In this document: positions 2 through 21,553 of the stretch, piece by piece
How the letters are laid out: each line of letters starts with the position of its first letter
Position numbering within the stretch: position 1 is the stretch's first letter
Origin: a virus
Virus record (IMG/VR): IMGVR_UViG_3300006810_000266
Location: 1 to 29,222 of that record
DNA length: 29,222 bases
Strand: one strand, 5' to 3'
The notes under the pieces: model-generated
Seen by the model: only the letters and a program-made list of their open reading frames with translations
What the model was told of the DNA's origin: nothing
Database searches by the model: none
Program-made: the position numbers and the translations under genes

Positions 2-3000
2 AAATTATTAGAGGGGAAAGACTTAACGAAAGGTACTGCGGTACAACACATGCCTGAAATCAAACAGGAGGTTAGTCGATTCTCTAAAGAATTAGATGTA
101 AATGTAACCTCCCAAATGCAAGATTTTGGGTTGGTAGAAACCGATTTTAGCACTAATAACCTCAATAAAAGCTTAGGTCAATGGGCGGTAATCCGCAGAC
201 CTGCTGCTACTAAAGTACTTGAGGAAATCGTAGGTGCTAACGTCAGAGGGGAAGGAACACTAAGCAGGCGTATCCAAGGTCTCGGCGCTAACGAACTTAA
301 GCGCATTCAAGCCACTATTACAAAAGGCTTGCGGGAAGGGTGGGACAACAAACAGCTAGTCCGCTCGGTTATAAAAACAACAAGATTGACCGAAGCCCAA
401 GCATCCGCATTAGTGAGAACTGCCGTAACTAAGACGCAAACTACAGCTCAATTAGCTTCATTCCAAGAGAATAGAGCAATTCTTAAGGGCATGCGCTTTA
501 CCGCAGTATTGGATAATCGTACATCAGCCATTTGTGCTCATCACGATGGGGAAATCTACGACCTAGATGACCTCCGCTTTGTTCCTCCTTTACACTGGAG
601 GTGTCGTAGCACACTAGTACCTGTTGTTAAGTCTTATGATGAGCTCTTAGCTAGTACTTCCCCTGACGTAAAAAAGAAAGCTCTTAAAGCTATTAAACAA
701 ACTAATATTAAAAAGTTCGATGGTATTGGGCCAAGTAGGGAAACCTATGGACAATGGCTCACAAGGCAACCTAGAGAAACTAAGGTTCGCCATTTTCAAG
801 GAGATATACAGAAAGTAGATCTTTTTGATTCTGGACAACTCCCGCTTACAAGTTTTACTACAGCAAGTGGGAAACCTATTTCATTACAAGCACTTCGAAG
901 GCTGGATAATAAAAATACAAACTTCACACCAGTAAAGCAGAAAGCTTTAAGTGCAACCGCTATTAATAATTTGAGAGTGGATGCTTCAAGACCACAGACT
1001 TTGATTCGTAATAAAGACGTTGAGAACCAACTTAAAGTCTTTTACAGGGCAGAGGCACACAATAATTCCTCCGCCTTGGCTGTTGTGGATTATAGAGGTA
1101 CATCTCTTGCGGGTAAACGTGCTACTCGACGGAGAGCAAATAATCAATTCGATGAAAGGAATGTGGGAGTTGATCCATTAACCGGAGAACAAAAATCAAC
1201 ACTGATTTATAGTCCTGATTTTGAAGTATACCAAGAGAGAATAGACTTTGTAAATAGATCTAAACTACTAACGACAGAACAGAAAGCTTGGATTACAGGT
1301 TTTGTAGATTCATTGGAAGATGAAGGATTATCTGTCAATCAGAGAACTGCTGTTGCTGAAAACCTTAGAATTGTATTCGAAAGGTACGCAAAAGATAAGA
1401 CTCCGTGGGTAAATCTTTCTAGCGTTCTTAAAGCAGAACTCAAGAACTCAGTAGTGAACACTTCTAGAATTCTAGATAGAAGATCTAGATTACGAGGAAA
1501 TATATTTCGTTTTGGCAATAAAGAAGAAGATGCTCAAGTTCAGATATTAGGAGAATGGACTTCTTTTGATGACTTGTCGGACAGGACATTATCAAATCAG
1601 AGATACGTAGATGAGTGGGCAGTTAAAAATGGATTACCTTTAGCTAGAGATTTATATATTAAAGGTAGATCACCGCTTAGGCTTTATTTCCCAAGAGTAC
1701 CTGCTTACATTCCTACTAAGAAATCTATTAGAAAGAAAATTAAGAAAGAAATTGAGAGTTTACCTTTTGGGAAGGCTTTTCTAAAGAGATATAATGGGGA
1801 ACCTTCAGATGATCTTATAACTCGCTTTTTACAAGCTGGTAATGAGAGAAAAAGAAGGATTCTAGATCTTGAATGGATATATGCCAGGAAAAGAGAAGAC
1901 TTTATACAAAGAGAGCTTACTCCTGATTTCTTAAAGAAACGTACTAAGCTATTATCTGAGATAATGGCAGACATAGCAACAGGCGAGTCTACAGACTATG
2001 ATTTGTTAGCTATTAGGATTGGTAAGAAGATTTATGAAGCGGAGGCTAACGACTTCGATATATTCTTTAAACCACCAACAGTTAAAAATTATCATAAAGT
2101 AGGATCAGATATTCTTGATGGTCTTAAGGACCAAGGCAAAATCAGAATTGGCATGAGAGGTGTTACTCGTAGAGGCATCATCGATGTCGAATCCGGAAGG
2201 CCGGGAATAGGCTCTTATGCGGATACCATCTCCCGGGAAGTCCAGATTATTGACCCTGAAATGCTCAAACTGCAGAGGGCATATCAGGAGTTAGTATACT
2301 CTAGACGAATTGGTATCATAAGAGAAAGGGATATGCTTACTGTGAAGGCAGGATCAAAGACGTTCTTTGATTCTAGAGGTCGTAAAACAGGGCTTAGTGT
2401 AATAACACGAAGAGCCTCTGGTAATTATGATCAAAACCTGATCGATAGGGATTTCTCTAGAATGCTTAATCACGCCATGGATTTTGAATGGGAAGTTGAT
2501 GATGATTTTGCCTCTTTCTTTGAATCTCTTATGTATTTCAGAGACCCCAGAGGAAGAGTTGCCTACTATGATGAGCTAAACGGTTTTCGAAAGATTGTTC
2601 TTCAAAGAGGAGAAGCAGGCGCAGGCATGATGCAGTCCTTAAGGTGGCATCGCGTTAATAAACAATCTTGGAGGAATTGGGCGCAGATAGACGGTAGAGG
2701 ACGATTATATACCCAAGGGTATCTTCACCCTGCAGGAGGGGAGTTCATACGACCCTTCTTAAATACCAAAGTATCTAAACAAATTCGTCCTGAGACTGTT
2801 AATGAACTTCGATTGCAATTAGGAACACTCGTAGGAGATCCTTTCAATACTCTGACTAATGAGGGAAGACTAAGAGCCTTTAGAGAAAATGAGAAGGCAC
2901 TCAGAGAGATAGGGGAGTTGATGTTAGCAGAAACTCAAAGGGATCGTAGGATCCGGGAGTTCCTAGAGCATCCTCTTATTAGGGCAACTGAACCTGAAGA

Positions 3001-4330
3001 AGTTCCAAAACTAGCTCGACTTGCTCTTGAATATACACGTATCTATAAGCATGTAGATGGTGATTTTACTGACAATAGAAAATTAAAAGGTTATTTCACA
3101 CAATTAGCAAACGAAAATGACGCTTCTGCTTCAGGAGCTCAGTTAATTGCCCTAAGCACAAGGGATAGGCAGTTAGCTCAGGCTTCTAATATTCTAAAAA
3201 CAAAAAGAAAGAATCGTCTTTATGATATTGTAGCAGAAAGAACCTTATCTGATCCAGACTTCCATAAAATAAATCCATTAGGAAACGACTTAGACTTTGG
3301 TGATTTATCTAAGGCAGCTAAAGGTCAATCGATGGTAGCTTTTTATGGTGCTGGACAAGCAACACAAGCAGGGGCTATTGAAGCTAAATTAGCTAAAGTT
3401 CTTGCTAAGAAAAATTTTGTAGTAGTAACTGCTGATGAATTAAGAGACTTTAATAAAGGCATTGATAATGCGATTAAAGCAGCGGAGAAATCTAATGCGT
3501 CGTCTGTGGCGGCGTCTCTAAGAGAACTTAAAACAGAAGTAAACTACTCTATAACTAACAATGTTCCAATCGGGAAAAAGCTCTTGGCACACGCTAGAGA
3601 CGTTCACCCTGATTCGGAGCTTTTTGTAGCCAAGCTGACCAACGTTAAAGGTGGCATTGTAGGCCCTCAACAATTTAAAGAGGTAGCCCGTATTATGTCA
3701 AAACACCTTAAAGACGTTGCTCCGGTAACGGAGAACTTTATTTCATATTGGAAAAAAGTTGCGGAGGTTTACATTACTGAATCAGGAAAGGTAGACATAC
3801 CTTGGGTTACAGTAGACGGTAAACTCTTGTATCAGCGATACCGTCCTACAGTTCAAGAAAGGATCTCTTTTATCGATCCTGTAACTGGAAGGAGGGTGAG
3901 TAATGTCTACGAGGTAGCGATAACCGACTCTAAATATTTAGGAAGGTCATCGATTATTGATGCTCGTAGCGGTCTAGGAGTAAATGGAAACCACATGAAT
4001 GACGCATCCATTGTTCGCAAATTCCACTTATGGGGTAGAGCGAATAACGTGAACACAGCGACTATTCATGACGGATTCTTTACTAACATCGTTGATTCTA
4101 CAGATGCTAAATGGGCATTACGTAGAATATATGCGGATGCGGTAGAGGGTCAAACACTCCTTCGTACCCTCAAGGAAATGAGGAAACAAGGGCTTTCTAA
4201 AGAGTCCTATGAAAGACTTCTTAAGGAAGCAGAAGAGTTGGGTCTCTTAAACCCCAAGGATGGTATTACAGCCGAAGACATATTGGAATTGATCCTAGAA
4301 GGAGAAGACTGGTATGGAATTGGCCCATAA
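2..4330 (+). CDS. MuF-like minor head protein fused to a T7/N4-type single-subunit RNA polymerase (5' partial)
   Basis: The frame is open to the left edge and the ATG at 50 has no ribosome binding site, so the gene very probably starts upstream; 1442 residues are visible. Numbering below counts from the ATG at 50. Residues 1-286 look like a MuF/SPP1 gp7 minor head protein: CAHHDG at 162-167, HWRCRS at 182-187, then the YGQWLTRQP and QALRRLD segments usual at the end of such proteins. The C-terminal part carries the ordered landmarks of single-subunit RNA polymerases: DGRGRLY (D881-Y887; T7 DWRGRVY), motif A DASASGAQ (D1024; T7 D537), motif B K1091 with Y1099 eight residues on (T7 K631/Y639), HMNDAS (H1315; T7 H784) and IHDGF (H1340, D1341; T7 H811/D812). 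The motif B arginine (T7 R627) is replaced by S1087, with K1088 beside it. Residues 290-800 are unassigned and may be a polymerase N-terminal domain. Both catalytic aspartates are present, so activity is plausible. Family A DNA polymerase is less likely because DxxGR and HxxD are present. Confidence 0.88.
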   Translation, partial: KLLEGKDLTKGTAVQHMPEIKQEVSRFSKELDVNVTSQMQDFGLVETDFSTNNLNKSLGQWAVIRRPAATKVLEEIVGANVRGEGTLSRRIQGLGANELKRIQATITKGLREGWDNKQLVRSVIKTTRLTEAQASALVRTAVTKTQTTAQLASFQENRAILKGMRFTAVLDNRTSAICAHHDGEIYDLDDLRFVPPLHWRCRSTLVPVVKSYDELLASTSPDVKKKALKAIKQTNIKKFDGIGPSRETYGQWLTRQPRETKVRHFQGDIQKVDLFDSGQLPLTSFTTASGKPISLQALRRLDNKNTNFTPVKQKALSATAINNLRVDASRPQTLIRNKDVENQLKVFYRAEAHNNSSALAVVDYRGTSLAGKRATRRRANNQFDERNVGVDPLTGEQKSTLIYSPDFEVYQERIDFVNRSKLLTTEQKAWITGFVDSLEDEGLSVNQRTAVAENLRIVFERYAKDKTPWVNLSSVLKAELKNSVVNTSRILDRRSRLRGNIFRFGNKEEDAQVQILGEWTSFDDLSDRTLSNQRYVDEWAVKNGLPLARDLYIKGRSPLRLYFPRVPAYIPTKKSIRKKIKKEIESLPFGKAFLKRYNGEPSDDLITRFLQAGNERKRRILDLEWIYARKREDFIQRELTPDFLKKRTKLLSEIMADIATGESTDYDLLAIRIGKKIYEAEANDFDIFFKPPTVKNYHKVGSDILDGLKDQGKIRIGMRGVTRRGIIDVESGRPGIGSYADTISREVQIIDPEMLKLQRAYQELVYSRRIGIIRERDMLTVKAGSKTFFDSRGRKTGLSVITRRASGNYDQNLIDRDFSRMLNHAMDFEWEVDDDFASFFESLMYFRDPRGRVAYYDELNGFRKIVLQRGEAGAGMMQSLRWHRVNKQSWRNWAQIDGRGRLYTQGYLHPAGGEFIRPFLNTKVSKQIRPETVNELRLQLGTLVGDPFNTLTNEGRLRAFRENEKALREIGELMLAETQRDRRIREFLEHPLIRATEPEEVPKLARLALEYTRIYKHVDGDFTDNRKLKGYFTQLANENDASASGAQLIALSTRDRQLAQASNILKTKRKNRLYDIVAERTLSDPDFHKINPLGNDLDFGDLSKAAKGQSMVAFYGAGQATQAGAIEAKLAKVLAKKNFVVVTADELRDFNKGIDNAIKAAEKSNASSVAASLRELKTEVNYSITNNVPIGKKLLAHARDVHPDSELFVAKLTNVKGGIVGPQQFKEVARIMSKHLKDVAPVTENFISYWKKVAEVYITESGKVDIPWVTVDGKLLYQRYRPTVQERISFIDPVTGRRVSNVYEVAITDSKYLGRSSIIDARSGLGVNGNHMNDASIVRKFHLWGRANNVNTATIHDGFFTNIVDSTDAKWALRRIYADAVEGQTLLRTLKEMRKQGLSKESYERLLKEAEELGLLNPKDGITAEDILELILEGEDWYGIGP

Positions 4331-4359: not shown

Positions 4360-4396
4360 AAAACGAAATTACTGGGCCGTGCCCAAGGAGCTTAAA

Positions 4397-5074
4397 ATGT
4401 CACAAAAAGAATTAGATGAAAACCAAAACTCTCAAGGGGATGATGAGAATTCCCAAAGCCAAAATGATACTCCGTCTAGTGAAGAGCTAGCGAAGATTGT
4501 TGAAGCTAGGGTTAATGAAGAACTCTCAGGTATCAAGGAAAAACTTGATGCTGCTTATGAAGCCCGTGATGAAGCAGTCCGAAAGGCTGTTGCATACGAG
4601 GAAGAAAGAAAGCAACGAGAGATTCAACAACTCGAAGAAGAGGGTAAACATAAAGAAGCCGCCGATCTTAAGTTGGCAGAACTGACTGCACGACTCGCAG
4701 AGAAAGACAAGCAGATTACTGAACTTACTCGCGATAATGTCGTGAGGAATGCTCTCAAAGGCTTGGATTTCAGAAACGACACTGCAGCAGACTTTGCTTA
4801 CAAAGATGTCGTATCTCAACTTGTTCAAGACGAGAAAGGTCAGTGGGTTCACCGTACTGGCGCTTCCGTTAAAGATTTCATCGAATCTTTCCGCAAAGAC
4901 GAAGACAAAGAGTTCTTATTTAAACCAAAACAATCCTCTGGCTCTGGACAAGAGAATATTACACAGTCCGGTCAAGGGTTTGATCATAATAAGCCACTAG
5001 AAGAAATGTCTACCGAAGAAATTATGGCTGCAGCCGCAGCAGGTCGATTCGATGGAACAGGGAAGTGGCAGTAA
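4397..5074 (+). CDS. Capsid scaffolding protein
   Basis: A 225-residue, highly charged protein directly upstream of the major capsid gene, the standard position for a scaffold that guides procapsid assembly and is then lost. The N-terminus is rich in Asn, Gln, Ser and acidic residues. A long Glu/Lys/Ala-rich stretch (about 25-115) looks like a coiled coil, and the C-terminal part ends in an Ala-rich helix (IMAAAAAGRF). This resembles the DUF4355/gp20-like scaffold type. I chose ATG 4397 because AAGGAG lies six bases before it (4385-4390); a GTG at 4379 would add six residues and has no ribosome binding site. No prohead protease is visible in the window, so the scaffold may be removed without cleavage or by a protease encoded elsewhere. 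Assignment rests on position and composition. Confidence 0.8.
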   Translation: MSQKELDENQNSQGDDENSQSQNDTPSSEELAKIVEARVNEELSGIKEKLDAAYEARDEAVRKAVAYEEERKQREIQQLEEEGKHKEAADLKLAELTARLAEKDKQITELTRDNVVRNALKGLDFRNDTAADFAYKDVVSQLVQDEKGQWVHRTGASVKDFIESFRKDEDKEFLFKPKQSSGSGQENITQSGQGFDHNKPLEEMSTEEIMAAAAAGRFDGTGKWQ

Positions 5075-5105: not shown

Positions 5106-6293
5106 ATGGCAATTTCCTCAAGTGCATTTGGCACACTTAATAAAGCAATCTCGGGTTACACTGATGAAATGTACACTCGAGCTAAGAAGATCGTTGGTAC
5201 TGCTCTCGTAGGTTCTGACGCTCAGATTAATCCTAACGGCGAAGACTTTATCGGTCAGGTTCGCTTCTACAAGCCTCTTGGTGCCTACGCTGTAGGCGCT
5301 ACTGGTGGTGCTAGTGAAGACGTAACAGGTAGCTCAAACGCTGTTGTTAACGTTGCTTCTCAGAACGAAGACTACGGTAAGACCACGAACATCAGCACTG
5401 AAGTACAGACCTACATTAAGACGGTTCGTACCCACGGTGCTAACGAGTACATGGTTCAGTCTGTAATCTCGGGTGAAGACGGTCTGGGCAAGATTGCTCG
5501 TGACTTCGCTGAGACTCGTTCAGAAGACGAAGACCAAGCTCTCCGTTCAGTCCTGAATGGTGTAATGAACGCCGAACTCAAGACTGCTAATGATTTGGCC
5601 CCTACCAACTATACAGAAGCATGGGCTGGTAACTCTGTTGACGCTGATGGCTCTAAGGCTTTCGGTTATGTAGCATCTAGCTCTGACACGGTTGGTACTG
5701 GTTCTTCTATTGAAGGTCTGGTTGACCTGACTCAGACTGTTCCCGGTCGTCGCGTTGAGCACATTATTCGCGCAATGGGTGCATGGTCTGATTATACTCC
5801 TGACTTCGTATACATGGTTATCTCTCCTGAAGATTACCTCGATGTCAAGGTTGCTAACCTCGTAGACGACGAGCGTGTTGTCGACGGTAACGTTTCTTTC
5901 GAAACTATCCTTGGTGGTGTTGTTCGACTGATCGTATCACGAAACTTTGCTGTTTCTCTTGGTACGGTAACTTATGCTGGTCTGTCTGGTGTAACTCAGA
6001 TGACTACGCTGAAGTGCTCCTTTATGATGCTCCCTGGTTCTGTATTCATGCATAACGTATCAGTACCCAACCCTGTTGCTGTTGATCGCAACGAACACGT
6101 TGGTATGGGTTCTGGTCGTACGACTGCTTGGTACCGTTGGGGTTACGTAATGCATCCTCGCGGCTATAGCTTCACCGGCACAAGCACTGCGTTTGCAACT
6201 AACGCTACGCTGGCTGGCTCTGCAGCTACGCCTACTTGGGACCGTAAAGTCGATCTGCTTAACCTCGGCATTCTGCCTATCTTCCACATTTAA
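5106..6293 (+). CDS. Major capsid protein
   Basis: A 395-residue protein between the scaffold and the head-tail connector genes, the expected size and place for a HK97-fold coat protein forming the capsid shell. GGAG lies eight bases before the ATG. Segments such as the acidic DFAETRSEDEDQALRSVLNG helix, the VYMVISPEDYLDVKV strand/helix and the GYVMHPRGYSF segment near the end are typical of coat proteins with a long spine helix and a P-domain. The codons (frequent CGT, CTG, GGT, AAC) differ visibly from neighbours rich in AGA, TTA and ATA, as expected for the most heavily translated virion gene. No clear cleavable N-terminal delta domain is seen, which fits a separate scaffold. The fold is inferred, not computed. 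Confidence 0.9.
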   Translation: MAISSSAFGTLNKAISGYTDEMYTRAKKIVGTALVGSDAQINPNGEDFIGQVRFYKPLGAYAVGATGGASEDVTGSSNAVVNVASQNEDYGKTTNISTEVQTYIKTVRTHGANEYMVQSVISGEDGLGKIARDFAETRSEDEDQALRSVLNGVMNAELKTANDLAPTNYTEAWAGNSVDADGSKAFGYVASSSDTVGTGSSIEGLVDLTQTVPGRRVEHIIRAMGAWSDYTPDFVYMVISPEDYLDVKVANLVDDERVVDGNVSFETILGGVVRLIVSRNFAVSLGTVTYAGLSGVTQMTTLKCSFMMLPGSVFMHNVSVPNPVAVDRNEHVGMGSGRTTAWYRWGYVMHPRGYSFTGTSTAFATNATLAGSAATPTWDRKVDLLNLGILPIFHI

Positions 6294-6315: not shown

Positions 6316-6837
6316 ATGGCACTAGTAAAGGGTACTAACTGTTATGTCACCTTGAACGAGGCTGACAGTTACTTCGATGATCGCATGGACGTTGCAGCAT
6401 GGGATAACGCTGATTGTGATTTGAAGGAGCAGGCTCTTATTACTGCTACTTCTTACTTGGATGAAATGGATTATTTGGGAAAGGTAGCTGATACCTCCCA
6501 ATTACTCGCATTCCCTCGCGCTGGATCTTTCAGAGATACCAGCCGGGGGGTCCAAGATGAATTCAGCTCTACTTATACTTTTACTGCGGATAACGATGAA
6601 ACAGAATCTAGTCTTAATAGAGATATCCAATTAATTCGTAGGGCAACCTATGAATTGGCATATCATTTAATCAATAATGACGGATTATGGGATCGTACTG
6701 GATCGTTTGAAAACATCAAGGTGGGATCTATTGAGATTACAGAGGTGCAGAACGCATCACTGTTTCCTAGTAGCATTCGTAGATTCTTAAAACCTATTCT
6801 CAGAGGAAGCGGTAGATATTGGCGAAGCGGGTGGTAA
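6316..6837 (+). CDS. Head-tail connector (adaptor) protein, DnaT-like family
   Basis: A 173-residue protein with a strong AGGAGG ribosome binding site (6301-6306), first after the capsid gene. The N-terminus (NCYVTLNEADSYFDDRMDVAAW) followed by a helical segment with ATSYLDEMDYLG and LLAFPRAG matches the phage adaptor family often annotated as a putative DnaT-like ssDNA-binding protein; in virions such proteins form the ring beneath the portal. The C-terminal IRRFLKPIL is common in this family. A Ser/Thr/acidic stretch (about 75-98) probably forms a loop. The DnaT label reflects a database name rather than a demonstrated replication role, so the adaptor function is preferred here on context. 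Confidence 0.78.
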   Translation: MALVKGTNCYVTLNEADSYFDDRMDVAAWDNADCDLKEQALITATSYLDEMDYLGKVADTSQLLAFPRAGSFRDTSRGVQDEFSSTYTFTADNDETESSLNRDIQLIRRATYELAYHLINNDGLWDRTGSFENIKVGSIEITEVQNASLFPSSIRRFLKPILRGSGRYWRSGW

Positions 6838-6840
6838 TTT

Positions 6841-7188
6841 ATGTCTATAAGATCAAAGATTACTACAGCTGTCAATCTCGCTTTTAAAGGAGTAGGAGAT
6901 TTAGCAGAAACGGTTACTCTTAAAACCCAATCTGGTAGATCATATAATTTTTCAACAGGTGTGGCTACTGCTACAGAAACGGAGACGTTTGTCACCGCTA
7001 TTGTTATTGCTCAGGAAGAGAATAACACTGAATCTAAGAACACACCGATTAAGGAAGTTTATATAAAAGAATCTGACTTGCCTGACCCTAAACTTTATGA
7101 TACTATTACTATTAGTTCTCAGGATTATTCTATCTTGTCTTACAAGCTGGAACCTGGATTAATTGTAATGCAAGTAACGGAGGGTTAA
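6841..7188 (+). CDS. Probable head closure (stopper) protein
   Basis: A small, mostly beta-rich protein of 115 residues that starts three bases after the adaptor gene and is followed without any gap by the next gene, so it is part of the connector operon. Position (second after the capsid gene), size and composition fit the stopper ring that closes the filled head before tail joining. The C-terminal stretch with YDTITISSQDYSILSYKLEP reads like the edge-strand ending of such proteins. I recognise no catalytic motif. It could instead be another neck protein; the assignment is contextual. Confidence 0.6.
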   Translation: MSIRSKITTAVNLAFKGVGDLAETVTLKTQSGRSYNFSTGVATATETETFVTAIVIAQEENNTESKNTPIKEVYIKESDLPDPKLYDTITISSQDYSILSYKLEPGLIVMQVTEG

Positions 7189-7584
7189 ATGGCTAAATAT
7201 GTAGATTCACAAAGAGACATTGAGGCTCTGTTCGCCAGTTCAACGTGGACATCTTTAAACATCTCTGCTTACCCTGTAAATTATCAAATCCCAAGTACAG
7301 ATACCGAATTTGTAAAAGTAGAATATCTTCCATTGAAAACTGATCAATCTTATTCTAGATCAGGAATCTCAGGTTTTGTTATCGTACAAATCTATGTTCC
7401 TGCAGATCAGGGTTCTAAACGTCTAATGGAAATCGCAGACTCCCTAGATACTCTCTTAGAGAACAAGACCCTAACTAACGGCACTAAAACAGCTGCAAGC
7501 AGGCTTAATATTATGGGTCCAGATAGCGACAACCCTTCTTTGTTTAGAGGGGATTATGAAGTCGATTTTAAATTTTTTAACTAA
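7189..7584 (+). CDS. Probable tail terminator protein
   Basis: A 131-residue protein starting at the base after the previous stop codon, so translation is probably coupled. It has an N-terminal helix (YVDSQRDIEALFASSTW), a strand with EFVKVEYLPLKT, a GFVIVQIYVPADQGSKRLMEIADSLDTLL strand-helix unit and a final strand (GDYEVDFKFF). This alpha/beta layout is typical of the DUF4128/lambda gpU-like tail terminators that cap the tail tube and join it to the head. Its place between the stopper and the tail tube gene supports this. Confidence 0.7.
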   Translation: MAKYVDSQRDIEALFASSTWTSLNISAYPVNYQIPSTDTEFVKVEYLPLKTDQSYSRSGISGFVIVQIYVPADQGSKRLMEIADSLDTLLENKTLTNGTKTAASRLNIMGPDSDNPSLFRGDYEVDFKFFN

Positions 7585-7599
7585 CGAGGTTAACAAATA

Positions 7600-8208
7600 A
7601 TGGCACACATTACTTCAATTAGTGCGTCTAAGTTCAGTACTCTGGACTACGTACCTAATACGGCAAATGATGCGCTGGACAGTGCTGGTACTCTCCACGC
7701 CTTGTTTGTATCGAATAGCGCGACTATTCTTGCTACTCAAGTAGCTACTGACGAAACCATTGAGGGCGCAGTAGTTCACGTAGGTAACATTCGGGAATTC
7801 CCTTCTCTGGGTACTCCTGCTAACGTTGTAAACGTACCTGTCTATGGCCAGGCTACGTCATCTCAGGTTGCTGGTCAGTCAGATGCTCCTTCTTTGGAAT
7901 TCTCTCTGAACTATGTACCTTCAGATCACGCTGCAATTGATACTCTGCGTAAAGCGGGTACTCGTTGCTGCTTCCGCGTTCGTGTAACTGACTCCGACCT
8001 AGCTACGGATGGTAACGGTGTAATCACGGCAGATAACGCTGATCTGTTTGATGACTTTTATTTCTTTGGCACGGTTGCTTCTTTCGAAGTACAACCCGGG
8101 CTGACGGATTCTATGCAGGCCACGATGACCCTTACGATTGATGGTGACTTTAACGGTCCTTTCTCTCTGGTTGCTGGTACTACTACGTCTACGTACGCTC
8201 TGCCTTAA
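7600..8208 (+). CDS. Major tail tube protein
   Basis: A 202-residue beta-rich protein that follows the tail terminator and precedes a strong terminator hairpin and the tail chaperone genes, the diagnostic place for the tube subunit of long-tailed phages. The region with SLEFSLNYVPSDHAAIDTLRKAG and the FGTVASFEVQPGLTDSMQATMTLTIDG segment near the end match the usual tail tube pattern of a central helix between strands and a final beta hairpin. Like the capsid gene it uses CGT, CTG, GGT and AAC codons much more than its neighbours, consistent with high expression. GAGG in the sequence before ATG 7600 serves as the ribosome binding site. Confidence 0.85.
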   Translation: MAHITSISASKFSTLDYVPNTANDALDSAGTLHALFVSNSATILATQVATDETIEGAVVHVGNIREFPSLGTPANVVNVPVYGQATSSQVAGQSDAPSLEFSLNYVPSDHAAIDTLRKAGTRCCFRVRVTDSDLATDGNGVITADNADLFDDFYFFGTVASFEVQPGLTDSMQATMTLTIDGDFNGPFSLVAGTTTSTYALP

Positions 8209-9597: not shown

Positions 9598-9609
9598 TAG
9601 GAGAGCTTG

Positions 9610-12600
9610 ATGGCTTTAGAAATTGAGATAACTTCCAATTCCAAACAAGCCCAGTCTGACCTTAATAGGCTTAATAAATCTGTTGACAGAATCGCTGACA
9701 GTGCAGAAAGGACTAGTAGTACTTTATCTACTACATTTACTATACTAGCAGCGGGAGCAACCGCTCTTGTAGGTGCAGCGGGGCTTAAAGGAGTAACGGA
9801 TAGTTTTACTAGAATTAATAACCAAATTGCTTTGACCACAGGTAGAACTAACAGGCTCATTGTAACACAAACAAAACTGTTAAATACCTCACGAAGAGTT
9901 AGAGTACAATTAGAAGAAACAACAAACTTATATTCTTCTCTTGCTAGGAATACTAAATTATCCGCTGACGAATCACTTAAACTAACAGAGGTTCTTTTAA
10001 AAGCAGCTAAGATTGGTGGGGGTTCCGCTCAAACTATTAGCGGTTCTTTGATCCAGTTACAACAAGGTTTAGCCTCTGGTGTTCTTAGAGGACAGGAATT
10101 AAACTCTGTCTTAGAGGGTACACCTAGGATTGCTCAAGCAATTGCTAAAGAATTAGACGTAGATATAGGTCAGCTACGCAGGCTTGCAGAGCAAGGAAAA
10201 GTGACAGCTAGAGTAGTGCAGAGAGCACTTCTTGGGGCTGCTGATGAAATTGATGAAGAATATAGTAAGATTAATGTAACTATCTCTAATGCATTCTCTA
10301 ATGCAAGAAGGGAGATAGGTGTTGGCATTAATGATATCTTCAAAGTATTAAACACCGGTAGATTAGGACCGGTTATTGAAAGACTAGGGGTGGCAATAGG
10401 GGAAACGTTGTCAACCTTAGCAGTAAGACTCAGAGTTTTACAAACAGAATTCTTATTAATTAGACTAAGATTGGCACCGATTATTGATGATCTTGCTAAA
10501 TTACCTATTGATACCTTTGATAGAATCACAAGTATGGTGGTTAGGTTTACAGATAGGTTAAAAGAAGCTACTTCCTATATTTCAGATTTTGCTCAGGATG
10601 TTAAAGACATCTTTTATGATTTGTATATCTATGTAGTGGGGGCCTCTGTATGGCCAGATTTAATAATAGGTGTTATTTCTTGGTCTAAAACAATATTTAA
10701 AGCAATAGCAATATTAACTGCTTTTAAATTAGCTGTTCTAGCTATATTTACTAGTATAGTTGATATTGTATTTGATATGCCCTTATTTACCTCTTTTAGT
10801 TTCTTATTTCAGTTAGAGTTAGCTGCAACAACACTTATCTTAGAGGGATATTGGTTTAGAATAAAAAAGGCAATAGTATCGAATCATAATGCAGTTGCAA
10901 ATAGTACTAGAGACTTTATTAGCGCTATTAGAAACGAAAATGGTGAGCTCACTAAGTTCGGAGAAGGTGTTAAGAAGTTAGCTAACCAAACTGCAGTATA
11001 CTGGTCAGATTTTATAGATAATGCATTATCCTCCGCTTCCTCTACTATAAGTTCCGTTTTGTCATATATAGGAAACTTTGCTAGCAATATTGGCGGTGTC
11101 CTTAACGATGTAATTGATGATTTAAAAAGGGCTATTACTCTAATAAGGCTACTTCCTGCTATTATTAATATAGAATATGGAGATAAAATCCGACAAATCA
11201 CAGATCAAATAATCGGAGTGTCTCTTGATGCTATTTCTGGTATTGCAGGAACCATTCTTATCTTTATAGGTCTTGCAGCTGCTGCAGCAGGTAACGCGGT
11301 ATTAGCTACGCTTACTATCGGTCTAGGAGGGTTTTTAAAAGGGTTCTCTAAGCAACTAGAAGAAGAGAATTTATTTGGCGATGATGCTATTCCTCTTGAA
11401 GAAGAATTAAGAAAACAAACCAATATCTTACAAAAAGTATCTGATGGTATCGGCTCTCTTATTCAACAATCTACACAAATATTTGGAGTAGATGAGGGAT
11501 TGTTAGCAGATGCTATTGAATTTATTTCTGAAAACCTAGTAGGCACCCTTACTGCATTGTACTTCAGTAAAGAAGCTCTTAGACTAGGTGGTGGTGGTCT
11601 TTCTAGATTACTCTTTCCTAATCCCGAAGCAGGCGCATCATCACTATATGCAGCCAGGGGTGTTAGGGCAGGATCAGAAGCATTTAGAGGTCTGGAACAG
11701 CAGTTAACAACACTTGAAGCAGACCTTGGTGGTCTTAAAGAAGCATCTAGGGCTTCTCAGCTGCAATTAAAATCAGGTACAATTACTCAAGAGCAATATG
11801 ATGCTGCTAAAAAAGAATCTCAAAAGATTGAGAAAGGTATCATAAGGCAACAACAAACCTTACGAGACCAAGTAAGACTCTCTGGTGATATCTATAGAGA
11901 CTCTACTGGCAGAATCGCTAAAGCAGCTTCTGCAGGTGCAGCTGCACTAGGTACTCTTGGTGCTTCCATTGGTGGTGTATTCGGTGGTATCGCTGGTTCT
12001 TTCTTAGCCACTGAATTTGCTAGGAAGGTAGGTGCAAACTCTGCACAACAATTTGTTATAACCTTAGCTACCTATAGGCTTGGTGAGGTAATTGGTAGTT
12101 CATTACTTGGTTATATAGCAGGTAGACTTGGCGGGATTCTCGCTACAGCTACAGCCTTAGCGTTCTCGCCTGGGGGTATAGCTATCTTATTAAAACCAGT
12201 CGGAACACTAATTGTAGCTAGTTGGGCGAAAGCTATGCTCCTTGTTAGAACTAAACTATTAGCTACCGCTATATTAGCGGGTTCAAGATACGTAGCTATT
12301 ACTTCCGCAGGAACAATTGCTGCCAGTATTAAAGGAGCACTGGCCTGGGTTGCTACTATGACAGTAGGGTTATTACCTGCTATGCTTAGGGCAGCCTCTC
12401 TGTTTGTTACTACAATTATAGGCGCATCTAGTCTACTTACTTTCTTTGTAGGAGCAAGTTTGGCAGCAGCAGTTGTATCTGCTTTTAGAAGTTCCACTGT
12501 TAGACAAATAGGTAGTGACATAGGGAAGGCGCTATTCGAAGCCATAGGCGATATAAGAGAATGGGACGATATTGCTGCTAATTTTGCTAAGAAGTTTTTC

Positions 12601-14364
12601 GCTTTCTTCGCTGAAGGTTATGAAGAGATAGTAGCTATCGGAACGGACATTGGTAAGAAGATTATTGAAGCCTTAACCGCTTTTGATGCTAAAACTTGGT
12701 TCTTTGGGGCTCAACAGAGACAAGAAAGAATCCCTGTAGAATCTGGATCTAACCCTTCCAATCCCGGTTTCGCTATGGGTGGCCGTGTTATAGGACCCGG
12801 GACAGGAACGTCAGACGATATCCCTGTATTACTCTCTAATGGAGAATATGTAATTAGAGAAAGGGTAGCTAGTCGTTACCTTCCTTTCTTGGAGGCCTTA
12901 AACAGAACAGGTAGACTCCCTAGGTTTGCTACTGGTGGTTTAGTAGGAAATTCTGGTAATATTAATAGCAGTGATATTCTTGACTCTTTATTAGAGTCTA
13001 TAACTGTTTTGATTAAGAGTGCAATTGGGGAAGAGAATTTTAGCAGTGCTGCAGGCTTTTTAGCAAGTGTTAAAACCTTCTTCCAAGATGCTCTTGCTTC
13101 GTTCAATAAACCAGATGAAGAACCTACTCAAGAGTTCTTTGATACTATTTCTTTTGCCGCAGCAATCAAGGATCTTATTCAAGAGAATACTCCTAATGCT
13201 GTTATTGATACTACTAAACTTAGGGAATTCCTTGATGATAATGCAAAAGAAACTCAAAACCTATTAGCCTTATTTGAATCAGGTAATAAAGTACAACAAG
13301 AGATAGCCAGGTTAACAAAACAAGGACTCCCTGTATCTCTTGACCTATTAACTCAACAAAGAGTTATTGGGGAAGATATTATTGGTAGATTAGGAGAACT
13401 AGTAGTACTCCAAAATGAAAATAATGCTCTTACTAAACAAATTAGTGAATTTTCCAAAACACAAGGGGAAGTTGCAGCTGGAGAATTTAGAGATGATTTC
13501 CAAGGAGGGCTTACTAGTCTTCTTAAAGGAGAATCGGATCTAGGTGATTTTGGTACTAACTTGTTTGAATCTTTCCGAGACAAAGTTATTGAGTCCCTAT
13601 CCGCTGGTATCACTGAAGGTATATTTGGTGGTGAAGAAGGACAAGGTGGTCTCCAATCACGATTAAGTGGCTTGTTTGGAAAGGTTACACAAACAGGAGA
13701 GAACATAGGAGAAGGTCTTTCTGCTCTGGGTTCATCTGCAGCTAAGCCTTTATGGGTTCAGATTGTAGGATCTGGTGGAAAAGGAGACCCCCTAGATATC
13801 GCACTTCCCGGTGGAACAGAAGGTTTACCGGAAGGGGGTGCTGATCCTACGGGTTCTACTACAGGAGAAATCCCTGCGGAAGGCACTAGCGCGGCAGAGA
13901 CCGCTGCGGGTGGCGTAGAGTCCGGAGGTGAGAAAGCTGCTGGTGGTTTCAAACAAGTATTTGAAAGCTTTACTTCTAAATTTAGTTCTATATTTGATGG
14001 ACTCATCGGTAAGCTTGGTGGATTCTTAGGAAGTATCGCTAATACTCTTGGAAGTTTATTTAGTAGTATTGGTAGCGGTATTGGCTCTTTCTTTGGTTTA
14101 TTCTTCCATAACGGAGGATTAGTACCAGATGGAGGAGGTTACCATAAACTTAATGGTGGTGAAATGGTTCTTACAGAAGCTCAACAAACAGAACTCTTTG
14201 CTGCTGCTAAAGGTAATACTATGAGGTCTGATAGCCAAAACCAAGTAGTAAATAACATTCATATCACTGGTGATATTTCTAGACAAACCAAGAAAGAAAT
14301 TATACAGATGCTTCCCACAATTGCTGGTGGGGTAAATCAGTATAATCGTGAAAACTTACGTTAA
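9610..14364 (+). CDS. Tape measure protein
   Basis: At 1584 residues this is the long tail-length ruler, directly after the chaperone and gp10-like genes. The N-terminal region has the tape measure domain pattern (GGGSAQTISGSLIQLQQGL near 136-156, GQELNSVLEGTPRIAQAIA near 162-180). Several long hydrophobic segments follow (about 355-390, 545-575, 777-803, 860-958), as in tape measures that insert in the host membrane at DNA entry. Near 1057 is GGRVIGPGTGTSDDIP followed by LLSNGEYVI, and near 1501-1522 a second copy, GGLVPDGGGYHKLNGGEMVL, both common in tape measure C-termini. I see no peptidase or lysozyme motif. ATG 9610 is chosen because AGGAG lies six bases upstream (9599-9603); TTG 9607 is the alternative. 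By the usual 0.15 nm per residue the tail would be roughly 240 nm long. Confidence 0.9.
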   Translation: MALEIEITSNSKQAQSDLNRLNKSVDRIADSAERTSSTLSTTFTILAAGATALVGAAGLKGVTDSFTRINNQIALTTGRTNRLIVTQTKLLNTSRRVRVQLEETTNLYSSLARNTKLSADESLKLTEVLLKAAKIGGGSAQTISGSLIQLQQGLASGVLRGQELNSVLEGTPRIAQAIAKELDVDIGQLRRLAEQGKVTARVVQRALLGAADEIDEEYSKINVTISNAFSNARREIGVGINDIFKVLNTGRLGPVIERLGVAIGETLSTLAVRLRVLQTEFLLIRLRLAPIIDDLAKLPIDTFDRITSMVVRFTDRLKEATSYISDFAQDVKDIFYDLYIYVVGASVWPDLIIGVISWSKTIFKAIAILTAFKLAVLAIFTSIVDIVFDMPLFTSFSFLFQLELAATTLILEGYWFRIKKAIVSNHNAVANSTRDFISAIRNENGELTKFGEGVKKLANQTAVYWSDFIDNALSSASSTISSVLSYIGNFASNIGGVLNDVIDDLKRAITLIRLLPAIINIEYGDKIRQITDQIIGVSLDAISGIAGTILIFIGLAAAAAGNAVLATLTIGLGGFLKGFSKQLEEENLFGDDAIPLEEELRKQTNILQKVSDGIGSLIQQSTQIFGVDEGLLADAIEFISENLVGTLTALYFSKEALRLGGGGLSRLLFPNPEAGASSLYAARGVRAGSEAFRGLEQQLTTLEADLGGLKEASRASQLQLKSGTITQEQYDAAKKESQKIEKGIIRQQQTLRDQVRLSGDIYRDSTGRIAKAASAGAAALGTLGASIGGVFGGIAGSFLATEFARKVGANSAQQFVITLATYRLGEVIGSSLLGYIAGRLGGILATATALAFSPGGIAILLKPVGTLIVASWAKAMLLVRTKLLATAILAGSRYVAITSAGTIAASIKGALAWVATMTVGLLPAMLRAASLFVTTIIGASSLLTFFVGASLAAAVVSAFRSSTVRQIGSDIGKALFEAIGDIREWDDIAANFAKKFFAFFAEGYEEIVAIGTDIGKKIIEALTAFDAKTWFFGAQQRQERIPVESGSNPSNPGFAMGGRVIGPGTGTSDDIPVLLSNGEYVIRERVASRYLPFLEALNRTGRLPRFATGGLVGNSGNINSSDILDSLLESITVLIKSAIGEENFSSAAGFLASVKTFFQDALASFNKPDEEPTQEFFDTISFAAAIKDLIQENTPNAVIDTTKLREFLDDNAKETQNLLALFESGNKVQQEIARLTKQGLPVSLDLLTQQRVIGEDIIGRLGELVVLQNENNALTKQISEFSKTQGEVAAGEFRDDFQGGLTSLLKGESDLGDFGTNLFESFRDKVIESLSAGITEGIFGGEEGQGGLQSRLSGLFGKVTQTGENIGEGLSALGSSAAKPLWVQIVGSGGKGDPLDIALPGGTEGLPEGGADPTGSTTGEIPAEGTSAAETAAGGVESGGEKAAGGFKQVFESFTSKFSSIFDGLIGKLGGFLGSIANTLGSLFSSIGSGIGSFFGLFFHNGGLVPDGGGYHKLNGGEMVLTEAQQTELFAAAKGNTMRSDSQNQVVNNIHITGDISRQTKKEIIQMLPTIAGGVNQYNRENLR

Positions 14365-14373
14365 GGAGGAATA

Positions 14374-14970
14374 ATGGCAGCATATCAATTCTTAGGATAT
14401 GACATTGTTGCCCCATTTCAAATTACATCTAATGAACCGGTATTCTCCTCTGACTCAGTATCCCTGAAGACGAGGAGAGTATCCCAAAATGCTCAAAGAT
14501 GGGAATTAGAATTTGGGATAGTAATGCAGGATGCTTCTAGCTTTTTACCTGACATGTTATTAGGCTGGAGCGATACAGTTACAATGACTATGCCTCAGCT
14601 TAACGTTAGAGGGACAACTATTAGTTCTGGCACTTCTACTAGTGCGGTTACTGTATCCGGTGCTCACTCAGCAGGTGATAGTACTATTACACTAACAGGA
14701 GCTAATGGTACAATAGCAAAAGGTAGATTTATTAAGTTTGCTAACCATGATAAAATTTATCTTGTAACTTCAGAATACTCTGGATCGGGGGATATAAACA
14801 TTTACCCCTCATTAAGATCTGCAGTACCAGATACAACTGCTTTAGCTTATAGAGATTCTGATAATATTATACTTACGGCATACCGTGATGTTACTAATGT
14901 AACTGGTATTACGTTTGCAGATGGTGTCCTTAGTGACGCTGGAACAATTAACCTTATTGAGGCACTGTAA
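14374..14970 (+). CDS. Distal tail / minor tail protein
   Basis: A 198-residue beta-rich protein first after the tape measure gene, with an AAGGAGG site just before its ATG. The middle contains SAGDSTITLTGANGTIAKG, then FANHDKIYLVT and IYPSLRSAVPDTTAL. This small barrel module is frequent in siphovirus tail-tip proteins. Position suggests a ring or adaptor joining the tube end to the central tail protein (distal tail or gpM-like role). It is followed after one base by the next tail-tip gene, so the three genes here are translated as a unit. Confidence 0.65.
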   Translation: MAAYQFLGYDIVAPFQITSNEPVFSSDSVSLKTRRVSQNAQRWELEFGIVMQDASSFLPDMLLGWSDTVTMTMPQLNVRGTTISSGTSTSAVTVSGAHSAGDSTITLTGANGTIAKGRFIKFANHDKIYLVTSEYSGSGDINIYPSLRSAVPDTTALAYRDSDNIILTAYRDVTNVTGITFADGVLSDAGTINLIEAL

Positions 14971-14971
14971 A

Positions 14972-15523
14972 ATGAAGAATACTCCAAGTTCAATCATTAC
15001 AGGTTTGGTTGCTGGTGTTTCAGAACCTTATCTTATTTTGGATATGGAATTCTCAGGCGGAACAGTTAGGTTAACAGATGCTCCTTACGATTTATCCGTA
15101 GGAGGCAATACTTATACTTCTGATGGGGGGCTTACTAAATTTGCCCCTCCTCAGTTAACTAATGTAGCCGACAGAGAAATATATAGGCTGGAATTAGTTG
15201 ATTTCAATAATGAATTTAAAGGATACTTCGATAATAATGCAGTCGGTACAGATGTTACCGTCAGATTAGGGTTGTTAGGGAATACTACTGATTTAGATAT
15301 TCTCTATAAAGGCAGGATAGATGGTGTTTCAATCGAAACTAATCCAGCCGAAGGAACTAAGAACGCTATAATCGAATGTTCTTCTCCTTTTGGTGCTCTG
15401 GATCGTACTAATGAGAGAATTAGTGATAGCTATGTCCAAAAACTTATTGATGCAACAGATACCTGCTTTGATAATATTTATAAGAACACAGATTCAATTA
15501 AGATTAGATGGGGTAAGAAATAA
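14972..15523 (+). CDS. Tail-tip protein, DUF2163/gpL-like
   Basis: The start at ATG 14972 (183 residues) follows the previous stop by one base; an in-frame ATG at 14915 would overlap the upstream gene by 56 bases and is rejected. The protein reads as a beta-rich tail-tip hub component: EPYLILDMEFSGGTVRLTDA, then YTSDGGLTKFAPP, YRLELVDFNNEFKGYF and a C-terminal part with ECSSPFGALDRTNERISD. This arrangement is typical of the DUF2163-like proteins found just before the gpJ-like gene. It ends in a TAATG overlap with the next gene, indicating translational coupling. It lacks the multiple cysteines of iron-sulfur gpL, so an Fe-S cluster is not supported. Confidence 0.65.
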   Translation: MKNTPSSIITGLVAGVSEPYLILDMEFSGGTVRLTDAPYDLSVGGNTYTSDGGLTKFAPPQLTNVADREIYRLELVDFNNEFKGYFDNNAVGTDVTVRLGLLGNTTDLDILYKGRIDGVSIETNPAEGTKNAIIECSSPFGALDRTNERISDSYVQKLIDATDTCFDNIYKNTDSIKIRWGKK

Positions 15524-18500
15524 TGGTATTAGATATTATTCTAGCTGTAATATCGATTGTAACTAGTGTTATTCAACAAAGAAAACAAAGGAAAGCCCAG
15601 AAGAAAGCAGAAGCAGAAGCGGATGAAAGAAAAGGTTTTCAGTTAACTATTAAAGGAGAATCTTCCCCTATACCTATTGTGTATGGTAGGCAGATGGTTG
15701 GTGGTATTCTTGCTGATGTGATTACACAACACGATCATATCTATGCAGCAACACCGGGAGCGGATTCCACTTGGTTATCAAATTCAAGGTTTACTGTAGG
15801 CACCAATCTTGATTATAAAGATAGAAAGCATAGAAATAGATTTCTCATAGGACAATATGCAATTTGCCAAGGTGAGATTGAAGAAGTTAAGTACATTCAA
15901 GTAGATGACTTGCCTTATAATGATAAAGAGTTTACTAGAGCTCAAGATGAAGAAGGCGGACATATTATTGTCCAATATAATAATGGAGGAACAGCTTGTC
16001 CTTTAGCAACAGCTAACGGTATGCTATCTACCAACAAGTTCACAGATTTAGCTTTTTGTACTACTTCATTTTGGCTTGATAGAGATAATCCACAATACTA
16101 CCAAATTCCTGACTTAAAGTTTTATGTAAAAGGTAAAAAGATACCGCAAGTCGTAGATGCAGGTGGAGGCAACTATACTTATAACCGCGCAGGCACTTTA
16201 ACATACACTAATAATCCGGCATTAGTTCTATTAGATTATATGACCGGTGATTATGGAATGGGTTTAGATAATTCTGAAATTGATTTGGAATCCTTCTATA
16301 ACGCTGCTGTTACTTGCGCCCAAACTGTAAACCCTGCTGCAGGATTAGGAACGGTTGAGAGAAGGGGTTATATATGGCAAGGTAACTCCGCATCCTATAC
16401 AAATACTCCGCTCTATGGTAGAACTATTGGAGGTAATAACTATATCTCTATATTTTTACCAAAGAATCAAATTTCAGTAGAAGACGTATCAACTATCCAG
16501 GCTAATTTAGCAGCTGCAGGATATGTAGGACAAATCGTGCATGAAGATGGTGGTCACTATGATATCGATTTTACTAACTCTACATATGATATAGGTAATG
16601 ACGAGATTCAAGTTCCTCTTACAGAGGTGACAGAAGTAGATGGTGCTCCTACTATGGATACCGCTGCGGATATTGAAGAAATCCAACTTAGTGCAATGAT
16701 CGATAAGATCAATACACAACCGGATACTCTACCTTTATATGAGTGTAATATTACTATTGATCCCTCATTGCCTGTTAGAGAGAATATTCAAGATATTCTT
16801 AACTCTATGCCTAATGCAGATCTTATTTGGTCTGAGGGTAAGTTTAAATTACAATTAGGATACTGGACCTCTCAAGCTGCTCTTAAGGCAGAAGCAGAAA
16901 GCAACCTTATTGTAACAGATGATATTCTAAAGAATAGTCAAATTAAAACTACTTATCCTAATAAGGATATTAAACTTAATGAAGCTTCTGTTCGTTATCT
17001 TGATGAACAAGATAATTTCAAGGCGAAGACACAAACATGGCCTGAGAAAAATGGGGCAGTAAGTACCACATACCTAAGTGAAGATAATGGTGTAGTACTT
17101 AACGCTCAATTAGATGGAGCCGGTTATACAGACCCCTATCATGCTAGAGCCTTAGCTGAACAAACAGTAAGGGAATCCCGTAGAGCGGTTCAATATGAAT
17201 TTGAGTGCTTTTCAGAAGCGTATAATCTTGAACCGGGAGATGTAATTAAACTAAATAGTGTTATCAATAGCTTAACCAGCGATGATGATATTATGCGGGT
17301 AGATCGTGTAGAACTAACTGAACTCCTTACCGTAAAAGTTTCAGGTACTCGAATTAATTCCTCTGATTTCGCATGGAATATCACTGATGAAATCGTGAGT
17401 CCTTATGATAGACACATTTCATTTGAAATCTTCCCACCTACTCTTACTAATACAGAAATCTCAGAAGCTAATATTGATAACCCTACTTCTTATGGGTATC
17501 GTGTATTACCTACTGAATCTGCAGTATTCTTAAGATTTGAAGTAAGCAATAGTAATGCTTTTGATTACTATGAAATTGAATGGGCTAAATCGAATAGCAC
17601 AGATGACGATGATTGGTTTATAGCAGGTCGTACTAAGAACGAACAGTTTACCATTAACATTGGTGAACCTGAAGAAGATGTTTATATCCGTGCTAGATCA
17701 GTATCTCAAACAGGCAAACGCTCAGATCCTTCTGAGGTAGTCATTGGTCCAGTTAATGTGGTAACCGCTGCAGCTTCAGCTTGGAGTTTTGCTTGGGATA
17801 TTCAAAATATTTCTTGGGTAGAGCAATCAGGTGGTGGATACACTTCACCTGATGCTACAGCAAGATTAGAAGCGTTTATTGGTGCACAAGAGATGACCCG
17901 TATTGATTATACGGGAGATACTAATGATCTTGGTGATTTCGAGTGGTGGGTGTCTAGTGTTTCTAATACAGGAACTTTTACTAGATCAGACACAGCTTAT
18001 ACTTTAGGTCAAAATTATTTTGAGACTACTACTAGTAACTTTAGTGCTAGCGGTATTATCTCTGTTACATTACAGTTAAAATTACCAGGGTATGCTGTAT
18101 TCACCACAACAAGAAAACTGGCTGTAACAGGAGTAGAGATTGGTACTAATGGTGCCAATGTAAATATCATATTCCAAAGAAGCGTAAGTGCTCCGTCGAC
18201 TCCTGCACCCTCTACAGGTATTCCCGCAGGATGGGCAGATACCCCTTCCGGTACTACAGGTACAGATACTTTATGGGCTTCTCAAGGGACTACTCCTGTA
18301 GATAGCGATACATATACATGGGATACTCCTTTTCAAATTGAAGGTAATGCTACTGCTGAAGTTTATATCTATAGGAAAAATGATAATACTCAACCTACAG
18401 GAGGATCATACAACTTTACTAACAGTACACTCACTAATCCTACTCCTACCGGAGTAGATGGTTGGGATGATAGCATTCCTGCTCTAACATCCAACGGTGA

Positions 18501-21374: not shown

Positions 21375-21537
21375 AGGAAATAAAAAGCCAGAAGTCCAAC
21401 AAAGACTTCCTATGGAGAAGCTTATTAGAATGTCTCCAGAAGAGATTGATTTACAGTTGCAAAGTATGAGCTTGATTGAACTAAGATCATTCGTAGGTAT
21501 CTTAGCCAAAATCGTAGTAGAGCAATTAAAGAATTGA
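21364..21537 (+). CDS. 57-aa hypothetical protein overlapping the previous stop
   Basis: An ORF from ATG 21364 to TGA 21535-21537 encodes 57 residues: a basic N-terminus (MKYKGNKKPEVQQRLPMEKL) and a helical amphipathic C-terminus with SLIELRSFVGILAKIVVEQL. It overlaps the end of the upstream gene by 11 bases, as coupled phage genes often do, and fills the space up to the structured intergenic region. No family is recognised. The LxxLSLxELRxFxxxLAKI type of helix and MSPEEIDLQLQSMS look protein-like, supporting a real gene, but the ribosome binding site is weak. Confidence 0.5.
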   Translation: MKYKGNKKPEVQQRLPMEKLIRMSPEEIDLQLQSMSLIELRSFVGILAKIVVEQLKN

Positions 21538-21553
21538 TCACCCTATAGAAGAT

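Follow-up and report, generated by a model that had tools for sequence, protein, structure and literature searches.

The window analysed here, the 29,222 nucleotides of IMG/VR virus record IMGVR_UViG_3300006810_000266 (positions 1 to 29,222), begins with a gene in which a MuF-type head protein is joined, in one reading frame, to a predicted single-subunit RNA polymerase (ssRNAP) of the T7 type. We consider it very probable that the product, MuF-RNAP, is a virion-packaged early RNA polymerase (RNAP) acting in a relay of two polymerases. From what is known of MuF proteins, the MuF domain would attach the protein to the portal within the procapsid, and the C-terminal ssRNAP would be packaged alongside the DNA and enter the next host cell. 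The delivered enzyme would recognise an early promoter-like motif (E), RNA would begin at the first purine after its TATAAT, so that many early mRNAs would start with a hairpin, and the early block would express a second, canonical T7-like RNA polymerase (RNAP2), whose gene is placed there in relatives. RNAP2 would then read a lineage-specific late motif (L) before the later genes and in many cases directly before the portal-MuF-RNAP operon, whose expression would reload new virions with MuF-RNAP. Such a closed relay could free the phage largely from host RNA polymerase.

The packaged, delivered and early role is supported by the position of RNAP2 in the early region, by the tie of the E motif to the fusion and by the late motifs upstream of the operon. 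In relatives the RNAP2 gene was found in an early block behind an early motif that occurs only together with the fusion. The window ends before the early block, and the findings on RNAP2 and the early motif come from relatives.

MuF-RNA polymerase fusion gene

The features of the gene are as follows, with residues counted from the ATG at 50 (residue 1 in this count is residue 58 of the full protein).

2-4330, plus strand: MuF-RNA polymerase fusion gene; 1442 of 1483 codons inside the window, 5' end outside, first internal ATG at 50
302-616, plus strand: Phage_Mu_F domain, residues 85-189 (Pfam PF04233, E 2.4e-15; PHROG head families)
827-952, plus strand: low-confidence, probably flexible linker from MuF to polymerase, residues 260-301 (model positions 1-42, nearly all with pLDDT below 50)
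953-4327, plus strand: predicted single-subunit RNA polymerase part, residues 302-1426 (AlphaFold2, Foldseek, Pfam RNA_pol, phrog_414)
2690-2704, plus strand: DxxGR motif, D881-R885 (T7 D421-R425); D, G and R invariant in 37 relatives; T7 alignment
3119-3121, plus strand: predicted catalytic Asp of motif A, D1024 (T7 D537); invariant in relatives; T7 alignment
3320-3346, plus strand: motif B, K1091 to Y1099-G1100 (T7 K631 to Y639-G640); K and Y invariant; site of group I introns in relatives
3992-4072, plus strand: H1315xxD and predicted catalytic H1340-D1341 (T7 H784, H811-D812); invariant in relatives; T7 alignment

The frame is open from end to end without interruption. An earlier note, made from the window alone, had described it as one frame joining a MuF-type domain to a T7-like RNA polymerase, and the open frame, Pfam, PHROGs and the relatives bear this out. 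PF04233 scores 57.7 bits, above its curated cut-off of 29.6, and Pfam RNA_pol (PF00940) matches residues 1012-1388 with E 3.5e-7 and 29.8 bits (curated cut-off 22), exceeding the cut-off in 19 out of 20 records. PHROGs assign the protein both to head morphogenesis (1.6e-51) and to RNA polymerase (phrog_414, 2.3e-24, residues 879-1121), and T7 RNAP was recovered by phmmer (9e-4) and by the family profile (9e-5). The ATG at 50, which had been taken as the start, is internal: a twin contig (L002), 100% identical to the window across an overlap of 5,762 bp, places the start ATG 122 bp beyond the left edge of the window, giving a full protein of 1483 amino acids (aa). In the same contig the frame preceding this start encodes a portal-like C-terminus.

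A search of viral contigs yielded 79 loci, including 56 full-length copies with MuF and polymerase in one frame. The probability that two genes were joined by an assembly or annotation error is negligible; such full-length copies are found on independent contigs and in two isolate genomes, the twin contig is identical, and no point was found in favour of an artefact, which was rejected. The gene boundary or sequencing error that the earlier note had wanted checked is thereby dismissed, and the fusion is confirmed as a real single gene.

An AlphaFold2 model of residues 260-1426 (26 homologues; pLDDT 80.5, pTM 0.71) gave a right-hand ssRNAP fold, the palm and fingers type that had been looked for. 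All 50 Foldseek matches listed from the PDB are T7 or mitochondrial ssRNAPs, the best being T7 RNAP (E 1e-19), with target-normalised TM scores up to 0.58 and 14% identity to T7 RNAP in the structural alignment. Among viral models the best match is a 1463-aa protein, of the same length as the protein of the DSS3 roseophages discussed below, followed by phage RNA polymerases. The residues D881, R885, D1024, K1091, Y1099, H1315, H1340 and D1341 are invariant in all 37 dereplicated relatives (full-length copies less than 95% identical to each other, at 36-72% identity), and a profile alignment pairs D881, D1024, H1315 and D1341 with T7 D421, D537, H784 and D812. The motifs and their T7 order, as claimed in the earlier note, hold; the spacing, described there as close to that of T7, is only roughly T7-like (D881 to D1024, 143 versus 116 residues; motif A to B, 67 versus 94; motif B to HD, 242 versus 173). 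By predicted fold and catalytic set the C-terminal part is confirmed as a complete T7-type ssRNAP.

In three relatives (contigs G043 and G051 and EBPR siphovirus 1) the MuF-RNAP gene is split at motif B by a group I intron, located at residue 1092/1093, at 1095/1096 and near 1096/1098, respectively. The intron of the EBPR phage was missed by Rfam at the gathering threshold and scored 40.5 bits in a targeted search (cut-off 50). G043 carries one further group I intron inside RNAP2. Since group I introns favour invariant active-site codons, their location at motif B is a sign of a functional active site. It also bears on the highly improbable alternative that the polymerase part is a non-catalytic relic, structural or DNA-binding, its fold reused as a head or ejection protein. 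The far divergence from T7 RNAP could be read in this sense, activity being predicted from sequence, but the catalytic residues would hardly all be invariant at such low identities, nor introns be placed at motif B codons, in a relic. The contig G043 (79 kb; L391, L393) has in all three group I introns, one each in the RNAP2 and MuF-RNAP genes and a third close to that for DNA polymerase, and a recurring core sequence suggests a fourth.

Promoter-like motifs and the second RNA polymerase

The roseophages DSS3_VP1 and DSS3_PM1 and the relatives whose sequences reach the early region encode RNAP2, of about 722-766 aa in most and with E values of about 1e-74 to 1e-88. Its sequence is barely related to MuF-RNAP (family profile against VP1 RNAP2, E 0.035), and an origin of MuF-RNAP as a recent duplicate of RNAP2 is not supported. 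The genome order is similar across relatives, with every mapped gene on one strand: early block, RNAP2, DNA polymerase, exonuclease and primase-helicase, terminase, and then portal, MuF-RNAP, scaffold, capsid and tape measure. In G037 and G042 (L378-L380, L406-L408) the frame that matches RNAP2 has just 471 aa, compared with about 730 aa elsewhere, and the gene is possibly split or interrupted.

The E motif came to light on inspection of the intergenic sequences that precede RNAP2. It spans about 30 bp, AAAAAGTGAGAAAA-n5-GYATCTATAAT, with 176 distinct and 137 non-redundant copies, and lies upstream of the RNAP2 gene, always on the same strand. A scan with a gap of 6 bases gave no matches, the actual gap being 7. 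With the motif core, 115 stretches were found in 2.9 million viral contigs. Of the long records newly fetched in this way, 18 out of 18 encode an RNAP and 12 MuF-RNAP; the remaining six also lack the region from portal to major capsid protein, and the earlier set behaves alike. The fusion is present on every contig with the E motif that includes the genes for portal and capsid. With a weight matrix, genomes including the early region score 40-54 bits and all others below 0. The sister phage Kolga, a Pelagibacter phage with a complete genome, has a homologous capsid, a MuF protein of 633 aa and one canonical RNAP, and it carries neither fusion nor E motif (best score -12 bits). The scan found no E motif in the window, because the contig ends in the tail region.

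Of the 137 copies, 73 have a perfect hairpin (4 bp or more) whose first base directly follows TATAAT, and these show 15 different 5' arms; shuffled sequences gave 3.0, and swaps of arms between copies 39.4 (maximum 49 in 300 swaps). The hairpins vary in sequence and are missing from the other copies, and we read them as 5' RNA hairpins, to be compared with the DNA-hairpin promoters of phage N4. If they are hairpins of the mRNA, the RNA must start at the base following TATAAT; the predicted start is the first purine after TATAAT. In ssRNAP promoters a TATA-like melting region abuts the start, whereas the sigma70 -10 box lies about 7 nucleotides upstream of it, so that a start right after TATAAT fits an ssRNAP better than a sigma70 -10 box. 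Between the 5' hairpin and the start codon, a further common stretch resembling CCAAGTGGAAACCAAGAGGAGA recurs in many of the early leaders and is possibly a translation signal.

Of the rivals (reading of E by the host, a swap of roles, a dead fold) the serious one is that host RNA polymerase reads E, with TATAAT as its -10 box, and that MuF-RNAP is active late or only at DNA entry, for instance as a transcription motor pulling the DNA in. Most phages begin transcription with host RNAP, TATAAT is perfect in nearly all copies, and the A-rich block upstream could serve as an UP element. We nevertheless regard this as unlikely. No TTGACA-like -35 box is found at 16-18 bp, with a sigma70 start, about 7 nucleotides downstream, most of the hairpin's 5' arm would not be transcribed, and the conserved GTGAGAAAA box and about 30 bp are constant in phages whose capsid and polymerase proteins are only 37-50% identical. 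The lack of E in Kolga also argues against host use.

The L motif came from an unguided search for repeats over-represented in intergenic DNA and is found in front of structural genes. It differs by lineage, being CTAATAGGTTACGTTAAAGA in VP1, TACCAGGGGACGCTAAAGA in G002 and relatives, AAATACTGCCGCCTAATGA in G044 and TTGATCACYCTATAGA in the lineage of the window. In VP1, PM1, G038, G041, G042, G044 and G046 it directly precedes the portal gene; in G001 its place is between portal and MuF-RNAP. A single exact copy is present in the window.

21534-21549, plus strand: L-type promoter-like motif TTGATCACCCTATAGA, putative RNAP2 site, exact match to the motif repeated in G001/G040 (defined in that relative with the intergenic sequence of the window already in view)

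With L just upstream of portal and MuF-RNAP, and E upstream of RNAP2, the MuF-RNAP gene probably belongs to the late genes read by RNAP2, and the RNAP2 gene probably to the early genes expressed from E. The roles could be reversed, RNAP2 reading E and MuF-RNAP the late motif, since both motifs occur in phages having both enzymes and co-occurrence alone cannot assign them. This is very unlikely, as the first user of E has to be an enzyme whose own gene does not lie behind E and Kolga has a canonical RNAP yet no E motif. Over eight lineages the divergence of L also follows that of RNAP2 (Spearman 0.76) more than that of MuF-RNAP (0.37), the pairs being non-independent.

Several points weigh against MuF-RNAP as packaged early polymerase. 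E was not seen in a relative of 30% identity which has both RNAPs (L429-L432), nor in EBPR siphovirus 1, on the contig of which no RNAP2 is seen. The perfect TATAAT at its end is compatible with use by host sigma70, and motifs were assigned to polymerases by position and co-occurrence. The presence of the protein in virions or infected cells is a prediction from sequence, and a folded 1483-aa enzyme would have to pass through a siphophage tail.

Genomic setting and relatives

The genes downstream of the fusion form a late module of a siphovirus, the setting proposed in the earlier note and borne out by tape measure, tail terminator, major tail and tail-tip genes.

4379-5074, plus strand: head scaffolding protein (phrog_206, E 5.6e-13)
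5106-6293, plus strand: major capsid protein (phrog_247, E 6.6e-22)
6316-7584, plus strand: head-tail adaptor, head closure (weak match) and tail terminator (PHROGs 477, 161, 179)
7600-8208, plus strand: major tail protein (phrog_158)
9607-14364, plus strand: tail tape measure protein, gene separate from the polymerase (phrog_3336, E 4.4e-51)
14374-20922, plus strand: distal tail and tail-tip genes (PHROGs 1302, 2048, 37728)

The fusion gene thus lies between portal, which is upstream in VP1 and relatives, and the scaffold and capsid genes seen in the window. At the other end, an open-ended frame at 23785-29220 (at least 1812 aa) has a G+C content near 50%, against near 40% elsewhere, and no match among PHROGs; it is probably a separately acquired tail fibre.

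By tblastn, the protein has full or nearly full cover in four phage records, DSS3_PM1 and DSS3_VP1 (two records; 45% identity) and EBPR siphovirus 1 (32%). The labels in these records name only a head protein or similar (head morphogenesis or minor head protein-like in the DSS3 phages) and no polymerase role. The phages carrying the fusion are a large, mostly uncultured group of long-tailed phages, marine and freshwater. The nearest long relative of the window consists of two contigs, G001 and G040, with an overlap of 14,276 bp at 99.97%, which jointly carry the fusion, both motif classes and RNAP2. G052 was rejected as the early region of the window's own phage, its tape measure being only 52% identical. 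A divergent lineage (L070, L071 and L067; 36-40% identity) has MuF-RNAP open reading frames of 1839-1984 aa with extra sequence; in L070 and L071 an insert of more than 300 aa separates residues 1385 and 1387, close to the C-terminus, and a Pfam search with this insert gave no match. The relative L429-L432 is a phage-like 74-kb contig in a gammaproteobacterial metagenome-assembled genome, with a weak look-alike of E about 2.5 kb upstream of RNAP2.

A homologue of dCMP/dCTP deaminase is present in many relatives, including L081 (DSS3_VP1), L382 (G040) and L158-L160 (G031), and none was seen in G037 and G042. DNA containing deoxyuridine (dU-DNA) may therefore be common in the group, and in members with such DNA the MuF-RNAP may solve the transcription of a uracil-containing genome.

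Comparison with known systems

The closest known phages are the roseophages DSS3_VP1 and DSS3_PM1 (Naomviridae, dU-DNA), which share with the window the gene order and a full-length orthologue (45% identity; major capsid protein 37%) and which have a second RNAP and both E and L motifs. DSS3_VP1 was isolated on a Ruegeria strain kept in the laboratory. No description of a MuF-RNAP fusion was found in the literature; the primary DSS3_VP1 paper was outside the search and may hold a prior mention.

MuF proteins are known to be fused to effectors, with cargoes including toxins, RNases, RelA/SpoT and phosphoribosyltransferase domains, and a 2017 survey of MuF and polyvalent proteins reported no N4-like RNAP modules outside the N4-like phages (PMC5512222). 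The likeness is that MuF would bring an enzymatic domain at the C-terminus into the capsid, to be delivered from there; a polymerase would be an addition to the described cargoes. The gp7 protein of SPP1 attaches to the portal, and a few copies of it enter the procapsid (PMC6316719), and by analogy MuF-RNAP may dock there as well.

In coliphage N4 and the Schitoviridae early genes are transcribed by the virion RNAP gp50, and the genes for a second RNAP, gp15/gp16, are among them (PMC12633501, PMC5512222). The packaged enzyme of N4 is likewise of the ssRNAP superfamily. N4, however, is a podovirus, its virion RNAP of 3500 aa lacks MuF and has N- and C-terminal domains of its own, and its promoters are extruded DNA hairpins. 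With the MuF-RNAP family profile, N4 gp15/gp16 gave only weak matches, and the N4 virion RNAP was not among the matches reported. Membership of the N4-like phages was rejected on the basis of length (1483 against about 3500 aa), MuF N-terminus and siphovirus tail genes.

The earlier note knew of no described siphovirus system of this design, a claim that has to be narrowed. The Thermus siphophage P23-45 has a virion RNAP, gp96, fused to the tape measure and a non-virion RNAP, gp64 (PMC10770324). It resembles the present phages as a siphovirus whose virion RNAP is joined to a structural protein (here predicted from the genes), with a second phage RNAP among the first genes and two promoter classes, and with a motif that is missing from relatives without the fused RNAP, as in Kolga (PMC10770324). 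The claim holds in that the superfamily is unrelated: the P23-45 enzymes are two-barrel RNAPs related to the cellular ones, the virion enzyme being fused to the tape measure, whereas here a T7-type ssRNAP is attached to MuF. Membership of the P23-45 type was rejected for this fold and for the separate tape measure gene.

The MuF-RNAP system would work like those of N4 and P23-45 and belongs to neither. We lean, if only slightly, towards the broader view that it represents a new and widespread class of virion RNAP, MuF-fused and T7-type, whose relay of two polymerases and two promoters frees a whole family of long-tailed aquatic phages from host RNAP throughout. If so, polymerase would join the list of MuF cargoes, the protein labelled head morphogenesis in cultured roseophages would be reassigned, and there would be predicted promoters for two new T7-like enzymes. 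It would be the third virion RNAP to have been built separately, after the ssRNAP of the N4 type and two-barrel enzymes like that of P23-45, and phages would appear to attach a polymerase repeatedly to whichever structural protein enters the cell.

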